Shown here piece by piece: positions 6,808-10,746 of a stretch of 64,000 nucleotides of DNA. Position 1 is the first letter of the stretch. Each line of letters begins with the position of its first letter. The stretch lies in NCBI RefSeq assembly GCF_900343125.1, contig NZ_OPYL01000001.1:1-64000 (forward strand). The letters run 5' to 3'. The notes under the pieces are model-generated. The model had not been told where the DNA came from and ran no database searches. It was given only the letters and a program-made list of their open reading frames with translations. The position numbers were made by a program, and so were the translations under genes. This DNA comes from Dysgonomonas sp. Marseille-P4361 (GTDB lineage: Bacteria; Bacteroidota; Bacteroidia; Bacteroidales; Dysgonomonadaceae).

Positions 6808-6831
6808 GAGAAGTGTAGATCTACACTTCTC
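6808..6831 (-). terminator. 24-nt perfect palindrome terminator of the sigma/Dma-like operon
   Basis: GAGAAGTGTAGA/TCTACACTTCTC is a gapless perfect palindrome, followed on the minus strand by CC and a long T run (6798-6806 are all A on the plus strand). It lies 34 nt after the stop of the NigD-like gene. Confidence 0.85.
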
Positions 6832-6864: not shown

Positions 6865-7674
6865 TTATTCTTCAACGAAAATCATACCATAAACCGGCTC
6901 TGACCCTGAGGTATAGAATGTTCCCAAATAAGAAACAGTTGGTTCTTTATCCGCATCTTTGATATATCTGAATTTGATCAGAACATTTGCAACCTTCTTC
7001 CCTTCCACTTCTTCTTTATAAGTAGGACGATACATTTCTCTGAATTGCTTCAAAGATCCAAAAGCACTCAATGTTTCGTTTTTAGGATCCTTAGACACAC
7101 CACTCTTCAATGTTTTAACAAAACGAACATCAATTATAGCTTGATTTTCTTTAAGTGCTTGCCCGTTTTCGAATTGGTTATCTCTGTCATAGTAATAATA
7201 CGCCTCTATTTCATCACCTTCTTTCTTCGACACATTATAAGATATCTGCCAATTATCATCAAAGACATCTTTATATGGATCCCATGCGCCTATAGCAATA
7301 CTTTTAGGGTTAATAGTATCATTTATCTGAAATTCGGGAACATTAGAGTAAGGCTCTCCTAAATAAGATTTAGCTATAGGCACTGGCTCATTTTCCACTA
7401 GATCGAATCTCTCTGCTATTGCTGCATATCCGCCTCCACTATAACTCGCTTTATATGATACATAATAAGCTCGCCCTACAGTCAATGTACTCACTTTATC
7501 CGCCTTTACAGGACCAGATCTCAAAGTCATTGCATATTTACCAATCTGATCGTCTTCTCTGATGTAAGCAAAATCACCTGACACCTCCATATAATTATCT
7601 CCATCTCCTAAACACGATGTCAGCATAGAGATTGCAAATAATACACTTGCTACCTTAATAAAAATAGTTTTCAT
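6865..7674 (-). CDS. NigD-like lipoprotein
   Basis: A 269-residue lipoprotein with a signal peptide ending LFAISMLTSC; lipidation is expected at Cys21, followed by LGDGDN. The body resembles NigD-like proteins of Bacteroides (two beta-rich domains of unknown role). I chose the ATG at 7674 because it starts the signal peptide; the upstream in-frame extension to 7707 would bury it and overlap the barrel gene. It is the third gene of an operon, 22 nt after the trans-envelope protein gene, and the terminator at 6808 closes the unit. A periplasmic or outer-membrane partner of the upstream anti-sigma protein is a reasonable inference. Confidence 0.65.
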   Translation of the reverse strand: MKTIFIKVASVLFAISMLTSCLGDGDNYMEVSGDFAYIREDDQIGKYAMTLRSGPVKADKVSTLTVGRAYYVSYKASYSGGGYAAIAERFDLVENEPVPIAKSYLGEPYSNVPEFQINDTINPKSIAIGAWDPYKDVFDDNWQISYNVSKKEGDEIEAYYYYDRDNQFENGQALKENQAIIDVRFVKTLKSGVSKDPKNETLSAFGSLKQFREMYRPTYKEEVEGKKVANVLIKFRYIKDADKEPTVSYLGTFYTSGSEPVYGMIFVEE

Positions 7675-7696
7675 TTTTTTACGTCTGTAATAAAAG

Positions 7697-8923
7697 TTAA
7701 AATTCATACTTTACACCCAGATTTAAGTCCAGCTGGGTTTTCTTATCAGAGTATATTGTTCGGTATTTATTATTTGCGTCGAAATAATAAACACCTCCTA
7801 TCGCACCGTAAATATACAACTTTTTATATAAAGGATATGCAACTCCAAGTTTTGTTCTTACAGAAAATTGCGGATTAGTTTGTTTTAAGTGTTTTTTAAT
7901 GTAATAAGGCTCGTCATAAAATATGTCCTCACTAATAGTATTTTCTCCATTTGGTTGCGGAAGATCGAGATGACTAATATATCTACCTTTAACATCTTTT
8001 TGCATCATACCTCCAAGAGAAAGATAAAATTTAGCCCCTCCAACTTTGTAAAAGGTATAATTCAAAGCTACAGGAATACCTATATAATCGAAAGACTGAG
8101 TCTCTCTTATATTATACTGACTGGCGGAAGTCACCTCTGACGAAAGGAGTGTATAAACCAATCCTGTTTCGATACTTAAACTAGGACTAATCTCTTTTTC
8201 AACAGTTACACCAAATGACAAAGGCTTATTGTGTTTAAGAATAAATTCATTTCCTTCCGCATCAAGAATATCCAGAAATTCTTTACCTCTGTTTTTTTGA
8301 GACAAAAGCATATCTCCTCCAGCATCTTTTTTAGTATAACCAGTTAGCCCTATTTCTGACACAACTCCAATAGATACCCCTCGACCTTTTTCCTCCTCTC
8401 GAATAGGAATGATACGTATTTCATCTTCAGGTCTAACTTTTGTCGGCTCTTCTTTTTTCTCTATTACCGGTTCTTCTTCCCTATCTTGAATCTCTATTTT
8501 CTGCTCTATATTTTCCTCTTCAACTAGCGCAGGCTCTGCAATCGCTCTTGCCTTCACTTTAGAGTTAACCATAGGCTCTACCTGAACAGTATCCTCTTCC
8601 AGGACCTCCACTGAATCACCTTCAACTATTGTCTCTGTTTTGGATGGTTCTTCTAATACTATTTTAGGATCCTCTCTGTTAAAAAAGAATATCCCCATAG
8701 CGATTGCCGCCGTTATTCCAACAACTGTTAGTATGGTTTTAAGTGAAGAGGAGTTTCCTGCAGATGATGATGAATTTGAGCTTGAAGAAGAATCTGTAGC
8801 CGGTGTAGACTCAGCAGACAAAAGCTGATCTAGTCCACCCCATACTGAGGCAGGCACATCTGGCTCAAAGCTTCCTAACTTTGAGGAGAATAGATCTTTT
8901 ATTTTGTCTTTTCCTACATCCAT
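7697..8923 (-). CDS. Dma-like trans-envelope anti-sigma protein (inner-membrane helix plus outer-membrane barrel)
   Basis: Four parts are visible in 408 residues. Residues 1-40 are cytoplasmic with the motif FEPDVPASVWGGLDQLL, typical of N-terminal anti-sigma regions. A Ser-rich linker (41-60) follows, then one membrane helix (about 61-81, LKTILTVVGITAAIAMGIFF). A long Glu-rich periplasmic spacer (82-180) leads to a C-terminal beta-barrel (about 183-408) ending in KYEF, an aromatic barrel terminus. This matches the dual membrane-spanning anti-sigma (Dma) family described in Bacteroides thetaiotaomicron, which holds an ECF sigma factor and affects vesicle formation. The sigma gene lies 1 nt upstream, which supports the pairing. 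The specific signal is unknown. Confidence 0.75.
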   Translation of the reverse strand: MDVGKDKIKDLFSSKLGSFEPDVPASVWGGLDQLLSAESTPATDSSSSSNSSSSAGNSSSLKTILTVVGITAAIAMGIFFFNREDPKIVLEEPSKTETIVEGDSVEVLEEDTVQVEPMVNSKVKARAIAEPALVEEENIEQKIEIQDREEEPVIEKKEEPTKVRPEDEIRIIPIREEEKGRGVSIGVVSEIGLTGYTKKDAGGDMLLSQKNRGKEFLDILDAEGNEFILKHNKPLSFGVTVEKEISPSLSIETGLVYTLLSSEVTSASQYNIRETQSFDYIGIPVALNYTFYKVGGAKFYLSLGGMMQKDVKGRYISHLDLPQPNGENTISEDIFYDEPYYIKKHLKQTNPQFSVRTKLGVAYPLYKKLYIYGAIGGVYYFDANNKYRTIYSDKKTQLDLNLGVKYEF

Positions 8924-8924
8924 C

Positions 8925-9473
8925 TTACGATCTTTCCTTTATATATTGGTTAACCTTAGTTTGTAATAATTGCCTCGCACGCACATACTGAGATCGAGAA
9001 GTGCCTTCGCTAATAGCAAGCATTTCTGCAATTTCCTTATGTGAATAATTTTCTATTGCATATAAGTTGAATACAGCCGAATATCCTCTTGGTAGTTCTT
9101 GTATCATCTTCAACAGTTCATCTTCAGAGATTTGATACATCTGTTCTTCTTCGGTTGCATCATCCACTATATCCGGAAGATTTTGAGGATCTTCTGCGAC
9201 TTGAATGAATGATTTCTTTTTCCGTAAGTCTTCTAAAGCATGGTTAATAAAAATGCGCTTAAGCCATCCTTCAAATGAACCTTTATTCTGGAAAGAATTT
9301 ATGTTTGCAAAAACTTTCATAAATCCATCCTGTAACAAATCCTGAGCAGTATCCATATCGGAACTATAACGCAAGCAGATACCATACATCGCACGAGCAT
9401 ACTTCTCGTACAGTATCTTTTGAGCTTCACGCTTTTGTTCTTTACAGCCTGCTATGATTTGCAGTTCATTCAT
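8925..9473 (-). CDS. ECF RNA polymerase sigma factor (Das-like partner)
   Basis: A 182-residue sigma-70 family protein with only regions 2 and 4. Region 2 includes DLLQDGFMKVFANINSF and the -10 contacting GWLKRIFINHALEDLRKK. Region 4 is the helix-turn-helix near residues 130-175 (YSHKEIAEMLAISEGTSRSQ). The separation from the next gene is one nucleotide, so sigma and its membrane partner are translationally coupled. From that partner's architecture I infer an ECF21-type factor that is released on an envelope signal. No full phylum-consensus promoter is visible upstream (9474-9600), which would allow self-regulation. Confidence 0.9.
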   Translation of the reverse strand: MNELQIIAGCKEQKREAQKILYEKYARAMYGICLRYSSDMDTAQDLLQDGFMKVFANINSFQNKGSFEGWLKRIFINHALEDLRKKKSFIQVAEDPQNLPDIVDDATEEEQMYQISEDELLKMIQELPRGYSAVFNLYAIENYSHKEIAEMLAISEGTSRSQYVRARQLLQTKVNQYIKERS

Positions 9474-9600
9474 CTTTGGCTAAGCTTCATTTAGTAGATG
9501 CACTTTTTCAAAAAATGCTGCATGTAGATTGCAAATAAATTTCACCAATTACACAATTAAGAGAATTGACAATATCTATTTGTCTTAATAAATTAAATGA

Positions 9601-10011
9601 TTAGTTTGGTTTTTGGGTAAACAAGACCATCTTCACATGTAGTCTATTACCTATATCAATGACGTCTACCAAGTCTTGGATAGTAAGAGATCTATCAGCC
9701 TGCAATAAAACGTTCATTTCCTCATTCTCTGATTTTTTAGCTAAGATATCTGCCAACATTGGCTCTATTTCTTCTTTAGCTAATTCTTTATCATCGATAT
9801 AATATCGCAGGTCTTGAGTTATAATAAGGTTTATATTTTTCTTAGTAACAACATTCTCTGCTGTTGTAGCATTCGGAAGCAACACTCTGATAGCAGCAGG
9901 TGTTACCATCGTTGATATGATAAGAAAAAAAAGTAACAGGAAGAACATAATATCATTCAAAGAAGCTGTATAAACTTCTGCTGTTCTCATTTTTCTTCGT
10001 TGGATTTTCAT
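9601..10011 (-). CDS. exbD: ExbD/TolR-family energy transducer
   Basis: A 136-residue protein with a short cytoplasmic N-terminus, one membrane helix (about 20-38) carrying the essential Asp in ASLNDIMFFLLLFF, and a periplasmic domain. It pairs with the ExbB-type protein 21 nt upstream to use the proton gradient to drive TonB (or Tol) and thereby TonB-dependent transporters such as the SusC proteins of this window. No tonB is nearby. Whether it serves TonB, Tol or another partner cannot be decided from sequence, so the symbol is by family. Confidence 0.85.
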   Translation of the reverse strand: MKIQRRKMRTAEVYTASLNDIMFFLLLFFLIISTMVTPAAIRVLLPNATTAENVVTKKNINLIITQDLRYYIDDKELAKEEIEPMLADILAKKSENEEMNVLLQADRSLTIQDLVDVIDIGNRLHVKMVLFTQKPN

Positions 10012-10032
10012 ACCTTATCTATCTGTTTTTAA

Positions 10033-10746
10033 TTAGGCTTCTACTGTACCTCTTTTATTTGCTCTAATCGCTTTCAATACCTCATTCGATTCTTTATCTA
10101 TACTTACAACAGCTTTATCTATTCTCCCGTTCAAAATATAGTATCCAGAATAAGCAATTATACCAACTAACAAACCGGCTCCTGAACAGATCATCTTTTG
10201 ATACAACCCTGTCGAAATAGTATCAATGGCCAAATCGTTAGTACGAGCTATATCATAGAAAATTTTTATAACACCAAATATTGTCCCTAAGAATCCTAAC
10301 ATTGGAGCTATAGATGCTGTAATACCCAACCAATTCATTTGATCTTCCATTGTACTGATTTGCACACGGGCTTCAACTTCCATTGCTTCTTGTATTTCCG
10401 CATCTTCTTTATCAAATTCTTTCAATCCTGCTGCGATTACTTTTGCTGACGCATAAGGTCTTTCCACACAGAATTTTAAAGCCTTATCTATTTTCCCTTC
10501 ATGTACTAACTCTACTACTCGAGATAACCATACCGAATCTTTTTTACCAAGTCGGTTTATTACGAGCCATTTATTTATGATCACATAAATGGATAAAAGC
10601 GACAAAAGGAAAATTGGCAATAGAATCCAACCTCCTTTCATTACAAGGCTTAAATAACTTTCTTCGGGTGCTGATTGTACGACTTGATCGACTGAAGCAA
10701 CCACAGATGAGTCCATTGGAACTTGAAGAAGAGTGAATAAGTTCAT
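10033..10746 (-). CDS. exbB: ExbB/TolQ-family proton channel
   Basis: A 237-residue MotA/TolQ/ExbB protein with three membrane helices: about 37-60 (GGWILLPIFLLSLLSIYVII), and the conserved pair about 140-165 (LGITASIAPMLGFLGTIFGV) and 180-205 (GLYQKMICSGAGLLVGIIAYSGYYI). A large cytoplasmic loop separates helices 1 and 2. It forms a motor with the ExbD protein directly downstream. The gene starts 24 nt after the nuo terminator and so begins a separate unit. Confidence 0.88.
   Translation of the reverse strand: MNLFTLLQVPMDSSVVASVDQVVQSAPEESYLSLVMKGGWILLPIFLLSLLSIYVIINKWLVINRLGKKDSVWLSRVVELVHEGKIDKALKFCVERPYASAKVIAAGLKEFDKEDAEIQEAMEVEARVQISTMEDQMNWLGITASIAPMLGFLGTIFGVIKIFYDIARTNDLAIDTISTGLYQKMICSGAGLLVGIIAYSGYYILNGRIDKAVVSIDKESNEVLKAIRANKRGTVEA

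Follow-up and report, generated by a model that had tools for sequence, protein, structure and literature searches.

The 64,000-nt stretch of Dysgonomonas sp. Marseille-P4361 DNA analysed here (hereafter the window) carries on its minus strand three consecutive genes coding for an ECF sigma factor, a 408-aa protein and a lipoprotein. This raises the question of whether they make up an envelope switch of the Das/Dma (EcfO/Reo) kind and, if so, what such a switch controls. Systems of this kind are already known; in the literature covered, gut Bacteroides and Phocaeicola are the only bacteria for which the Dma class has been studied in detail.

The operon and its products

The initial annotation had described a three-gene operon, and the genes das, dma and the lipoprotein gene do lie between an ECF-type promoter and a terminator-like hairpin:

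9496..9522, minus strand: ECF-type promoter, TGCAGCATTT-N12-CATCT, with the box YGCARCRTTT-N12-YRTCT
8925..9473, minus strand: das, ECF sigma factor (Das/EcfO-type), 182 aa, recognised by Pfam and TIGR02937 profiles
7697..8923, minus strand: dma, anti-sigma factor of the Dma/Reo type, 408 aa, assigned from its architecture, motif and predicted barrel
6865..7674, minus strand: lipoprotein gene, NigD-like fold by model, with signal peptide and Cys21
6808..6831, minus strand: intrinsic-terminator-like hairpin 3′ of the lipoprotein gene, 10-pair stem with T8 tail

On this strand dma lies downstream of das at a distance of 1 nt, and the lipoprotein ORF spans 6865-7707, its probable coding part starting at the inner start 7674. 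The terminator search found one structure against a mean of 1.2 in shuffled sequences, the argument being the position of the hairpin and not the count. Directly upstream of das are exbD and exbB (window positions 9601-10746), followed by genes which we take to be nuo genes, and downstream of the operon are ssb and a DUF1599 gene. The order nuoM-nuoN-exbB-exbD-das-dma-lipoprotein is kept in all 17 same-genus neighbours. Since the promoter is located between exbD and das, and exbB/exbD do not stand beside das-dma in the regions fetched from other genera, ExbB/ExbD were rejected as a component of the system and are treated as a neighbour; three regions (L068, L072, L073) contain more distant homologues several kb from das-dma.

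A match to the Dma protein was found in 59 of the 61 Dysgonomonadaceae genomes, some of the matches covering the barrel only, and at the order level matches with E ≤ 1e-10 were found in 18 of 60 genomes, two of these being the window's own genome and another from its genus. The conserved triplets that the initial annotation had proposed to look for did turn up: das and dma are adjacent in all 43 regions fetched, and a lipobox protein comes next in 42. The number of genomes behind these regions is 42 at most; L068 and L073 seem to belong to a single one, and L071 is a second pair in the window's own genome. In two of the 17 same-genus neighbours, L047 (G039) and L048 (G053), das and the lipoprotein gene are kept together with a dma that has no recognisable barrel, these being either natural barrel-less variants or assembly faults.

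The Das protein matches Pfam Sigma70_r2 and Sigma70 r4_2 as well as TIGR02937, which places it in the ECF superfamily only, with no ECF21 model among the matches. As for the second product, it had been claimed from the letters alone that one chain combines a cytoplasmic anti-sigma-like part, an inner-membrane helix, a Glu-rich spacer and an outer-membrane barrel, and a stretch corresponding to each of these parts was found. The N-terminus carries a motif conserved in relatives, with Trp28 invariant in 32 sequences; residues 63-81 form the most hydrophobic stretch, the putative inner-membrane helix, and a comparable one is present in the other 31 sequences; and the tether at 82-182 contains 26 Glu in 101 residues. 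The AlphaFold2 model of the protein alone, built from input alignments of 4 rows, shows strands at 183-193 and 227-407, thus giving the barrel that was expected in residues 183-408. Structure comparison (Foldseek and VIA-align) placed it with OmpA, OprF, OmpW, OmpX and NspA, and the Pfam barrel match was below the cut-off. In this model 101 of the 408 residues have a pLDDT of 70-90 and nearly all of 1-181 are below 50, which agrees with an unfolded tether and proves nothing about it, and the N-terminal, putatively sigma-binding part has no confident model. The barrel is the best conserved part of Dma; the chain ends with Phe in 30 of the 32 proteins and with Phe-Lys in the other two.

The identification of the locus as a Das/Dma (EcfO/Reo-type) system, put forward by the initial annotation, is supported by the predicted barrel, the conserved triplet, and the agreement of gene order and four-part architecture with the Dma/Das systems of B. 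thetaiotaomicron, which likewise consist of an ECF sigma factor beside one chain with an anti-sigma domain, a helix, an unfolded tether and a C-terminal barrel, encoded in a small operon (PMC13088901). The EcfO/Reo systems of Phocaeicola vulgatus and Bacteroides fragilis similarly include a sigma factor and an anti-sigma factor spanning all five compartments (PMC13114119, PMC9308784).

The third product was predicted to be a NigD-like lipoprotein, and this found support from the modelled fold and not from the sequence family. Ser20-Cys21 is invariant in all 38 aligned relatives, and a low-confidence model (mean pLDDT 52) matches structures of NigD-type and similar Bacteroidota lipoproteins. 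Searches with the Pfam families NigD_N and NigD_C gave no match for the window lipoprotein, and NF051862 (the NigD1/NigD2 family) gave 12.8 bits (E = 0.078) for the version with the longer start, below the curated cut-off of 60 bits, so assignment to NigD by sequence profile was rejected. Among the 38 relatives, three had NigD_N-like matches (best 6.2e-4) and one a NigD_C match (0.022). BamI was also considered, as it matches 7 of the 38 relatives, and was dismissed with the match in the window member restricted to residues 1-34, i.e. to the signal peptide and lipobox. PDB sequence searches with the lipoprotein and Dma profiles gave nothing useful.

The promoter box and the genes behind it

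The box YGCARCRTTT-N12-YRTCT was searched for within 160 nt upstream of das in 44 places, namely the window and the 43 loci, and was found as an exact match in 35 of them and with one or two mismatches in 7, compared to none of the 44 for a reversed control box at up to 2 mismatches. The two places with no match are L043, where the box overlaps a mechanically called start, and the second pair of the window's own genome, L071. On the scale of whole genomes, the 25 genomes of the genus contain 50 exact matches to the box and 5 to its reversed control; for the box extended by one base, the 61 family genomes contain 199 and 8, respectively (all summed by hand). The window's own genome has two exact copies of the box, one at das and the other at C11:855188-855214, and a third exact site of a shorter pattern (L076) was dropped as lying inside a 571-aa ORF. 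Relaxation by one mismatch gave 25 sites against 19 for the control there, so only exact sites were used; intergenic one-mismatch sites in this genome are L092, L096 and L099.

All 40 non-das sites were then read in nine chosen genomes of other genera (G001, G008, G009, G013, G014, G017, G018, G022 and G042). Behind 37 of them an ORF of at least 60 codons starts on the same strand within 330 nt, and a crude lipobox pattern fits 22 of these 37. Some of the sites are chance matches or lie at mis-called starts, as 6 of the 40 overlap an ORF of at least 90 codons. Seven sites, in seven of the nine genomes, precede proteins of the NigD1/NigD2 family, with 212-231 bits against the cut-off of 60 and E values of 7.8e-63 or lower; one of them, in L217, was picked up by reading, owing to an ORF call that overlaps it. 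Other genes behind a das-type box code for serpin-type lipoproteins (L207, Pfam Serpin E = 6.3e-104, and L230, the latter by reading), a radical-SAM-associated lipoprotein and a further ECF sigma factor (L214, by reading).

The position of the box before NigD1/NigD2-family genes agrees with the reported control of nigD genes and is the best evidence that the window sigma factor is of the EcfO/Das1 type, as far as sequence can indicate. In P. vulgatus EcfO controls nigD genes (PMC13114119), the EcfO/Reo regulon including three of them, and the nigD gene M0N98_03762 is numbered next to ecfO (M0N98_03761) and reo (03760) (PMC13114119, PMC9308784), whereas the NigD-like gene described here is the last gene of the operon. 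A B. fragilis EcfO motif has been published (PMC7366714), and the das-type box may itself already be known for Bacteroides. The box derived from the present loci allows a regulon to be predicted from sequence and links it to the NigD1/NigD2 family, for which a vesicle effect has been described in B. thetaiotaomicron.

The window's own genome contains another pair with a box of its own:

C4:177811-179121: dma of the second Das/Dma pair (L071, L002)

The sigma factor of this pair is 45% identical to that of the window. Its box, GCAACTT-N14-GCATCA, occurs at two sites in the genome, at das2 and before C10:98454, which is the only gene of this genome over the NF051862 (NigD1/NigD2) cut-off and thus carries the box of the second pair, not that of the window operon. 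The form GCARCTT-N14-GCATCA gave 35 matches against 3 for the control in 25 genus genomes (summed by hand); of the 30 loci read, 12 stand before a sigma gene and 7 before genes of other proteins that look exported; 8 fall within ORFs and 3 are followed by no ORF. The sequences thus indicate two Das/Dma systems with different boxes that operate in parallel, both of them linked to a NigD-type lipoprotein. As a side observation, a das-dma-lipoprotein operon stands before a fur-like gene in Dysgonomonas sp. PH5-45 (L074), and a fur-like gene follows the nigD gene of the second box in the window's own genome (both by reading).

The proposed switch and other readings of the operon

From the computed architecture, gene order, conservation, promoter box and genes behind the box, we infer that das, dma and the lipoprotein gene very probably constitute a Das/Dma (EcfO/Reo) type of switch that answers envelope stress and regulates itself, with sequestration of Das, its release upon a signal, a lipoprotein as output and, probably, an RNA. 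Dma would be anchored in both membranes, with the barrel in the outer one, the tether passing through the periplasm and the helix crossing the inner membrane, and its short N-terminus would hold Das at the inner face. A change in the outer membrane or at the surface, such as damage or a ligand, would alter Dma by pull or by cleavage and set Das free, and Das would then transcribe its own operon from the box at 9496-9522, giving more Dma and hence a reset. It would also raise the NigD-like lipoprotein, the putative output that remodels the envelope and perhaps promotes vesicle release, and in the window's genus it probably makes a small non-coding RNA tuning other mRNAs. Points that weigh against this reading are the two same-genus dma genes with no recognisable barrel (L047, L048), the low confidence of the modelled N-terminus, and the NigD1/NigD2 gene of the window's own genome, which carries the box of the second pair. 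An effect on vesiculation may reasonably be expected from the example of Dma1 and Dma2 of B. thetaiotaomicron, where cells lacking dma release more vesicles and the increase depends on das; NigD1 (BT_4005), the reported output of Dma1, is induced and required for the extra vesicles when Dma1 is lost, and with Dma2 vesiculation was unchanged after removal of the upregulated neighbour genes (PMC13088901). The present system differs from it in its third gene, whose lipoprotein product has a NigD fold (by model) and scores below the NigD1/NigD2 cut-off, and in a predicted regulon that extends to a non-coding RNA.

Classical anti-sigma factors of the envelope undergo cleavage in both the periplasm and the membrane, and it is possible, if somewhat short of probable, that Dma is activated in a similar RseA-like way, by stepwise proteolysis instead of pull, which would be a version of the same explanation. 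The stretch from the helix to a conserved barrel residue, 149-207 residues long in the 32 Dma proteins, is a plausible protease substrate; on the other hand, the operon has no protease gene, and the data fit cleavage and pull alike. That the 408-aa protein is no more than a common barrel of the outer membrane, anchored at its N-terminus and sharing an operon with the sigma factor without further connection, is very improbable. Such a protein would have its barrel best conserved, as is the case here, and would go well with a sigma contact that has no confident model, but it would leave the invariant Trp28, the conserved N-terminal motif and the constant das-dma pairing unaccounted for, and the B. 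thetaiotaomicron and P. vulgatus relatives are backed by genetic evidence (PMC13088901, PMC13114119). As to the lipoprotein, the initial annotation saw in it a sensing or gating partner. As a gate or co-sensor it would sit at the surface, bind to the barrel of Dma and determine the threshold of the latter. The gene order would suit such a stoichiometric partner, since the lipoprotein gene comes after dma in 42 of the 43 regions, at a distance of 18-33 nt in 14 of the 17 same-genus neighbours. However, NigD1/NigD2 genes elsewhere stand alone behind a das-type box, and nigD genes have been reported as regulon members and targets (PMC13114119, PMC13088901), so the third gene is likelier to be an output than a gate, the latter role being considered unlikely.

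The candidate small RNA beside pbpC

The second exact box of the window's own genome, C11:855188-855214 (L149, minus strand), is located between pbpC and the convergent rplQ-rpoA (genes named by profile). Of 18 good genomes of the genus, 15 have a box at the pbpC-rplQ place, and in a sixteenth, G005, it follows pbpC next to another neighbour; it was not found beside pbpC in the remaining two, G025 and G053. Downstream of the box there is a conserved core, GACTTCCCAACCTT-ACACAA, followed by a hairpin with a T run, the distance from the end of the box to the T run being 154-189 nt. In all 15 copies the core is less paired than the remaining sequence, a difference to which the terminator contributes by lowering the unpaired average outside the core. 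Single folds of the 15 related sequences gave a mean z of -1.47 for a 5′ hairpin, compared to -1.11 for a control stretch after the core, so the predicted 5′ hairpin is weak; RNAalifold on A5 found only the terminator, with double changes in 7 of its 12 pairs.

Two box-less copies of the core occur in the same genome, at C4:146931-147003 (L282), beside a gene read as AraC-type, and at C6:460006-460066 (L300), between prfA and uvrA, and such copies are nearly the same across species. Of the 16 genus copies, 15 went into the model R1, which consists of box and core, so that its strong hits there are given by construction, except for G055 and the box-less copies. No Rfam family exceeded its gathering score on the candidate RNA (15 loci), and none did on the box-less core copies. 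FopS and GibS of Bacteroides were considered for it (PMC11697453) and set aside; FopS, said there to be deposited in Rfam, did not come up.

We consider it somewhat probable, on the strength of box, place and core, that the Das/Dma switch has a non-coding arm. The freed sigma factor would transcribe, besides its own operon, a conserved RNA of about 150-190 nt beside pbpC in the window's genus, with an exposed pyrimidine-rich core and a terminator, representing one of three copies of a family absent from Rfam, so that stress would both make the NigD-like lipoprotein and tune other mRNAs, as sigma-E does in other phyla. The box thereby predicts one specific RNA. A doubtful yet possible alternative is that the box beside pbpC, instead of being the promoter of a small RNA, is part of a terminator or 3′ untranslated region or serves the expression of a short peptide. 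The terminator may serve rplQ, the hairpin and T tract simply ending the rplQ operon on the other strand, and copies of the core with no das-type box exist elsewhere. In addition, 7 of the 15 copies hold an ORF of at least 12 codons between box and terminator, and 8 of the 15 have a longer one (60 codons or more) on the same strand which begins no further than 400 nt away and continues beyond, mostly antisense into rplQ. Against it, no ORF is common to the set and eight copies have none of at least 12 codons inside, while the genus conserves the core together with its box and location, and the core is the more unpaired part throughout, although the terminator lowers the average it is compared with.

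MicA and RybB of E. coli are small RNA targets of the sigma-E response. In Fusobacterium nucleatum, an ECF sigma factor of the envelope similarly has small RNA targets, FoxI and FoxJ, and FoxJ, at about 156 nt, is close in size to the candidate (PMC11005410). Both cases come from other phyla. Should the candidate RNA be real, the control of envelope stress in Bacteroidota would have two arms in the way that sigma-E has in those distant phyla. In the same phylum, an ECF-type promoter precedes a putative regulatory RNA in Flavobacterium psychrophilum (SM6 and Rfp11), which differs in having a CGT box and type IX secretion targets, and no Das/Dma pair is described in the passages covered (PMC9723704). 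Neither the RNA arm nor the regulon of Dysgonomonadaceae was found in print in the literature covered.

In three genomes (L132, L147 and L137, from G021, G047 and G049), another das-type box stands before a stretch which ends in a hairpin with a T run and lies after a gene reading like a biotin carrier protein. Judging by the box and the hairpin, the boxed non-coding stretches, beside pbpC and here, are candidate sigma-dependent small RNAs. A separate observation concerns L139 (G051), where two lipoprotein genes each have a das-type box 127-141 nt upstream and the leader of the first contains a sequence resembling the RNA core.
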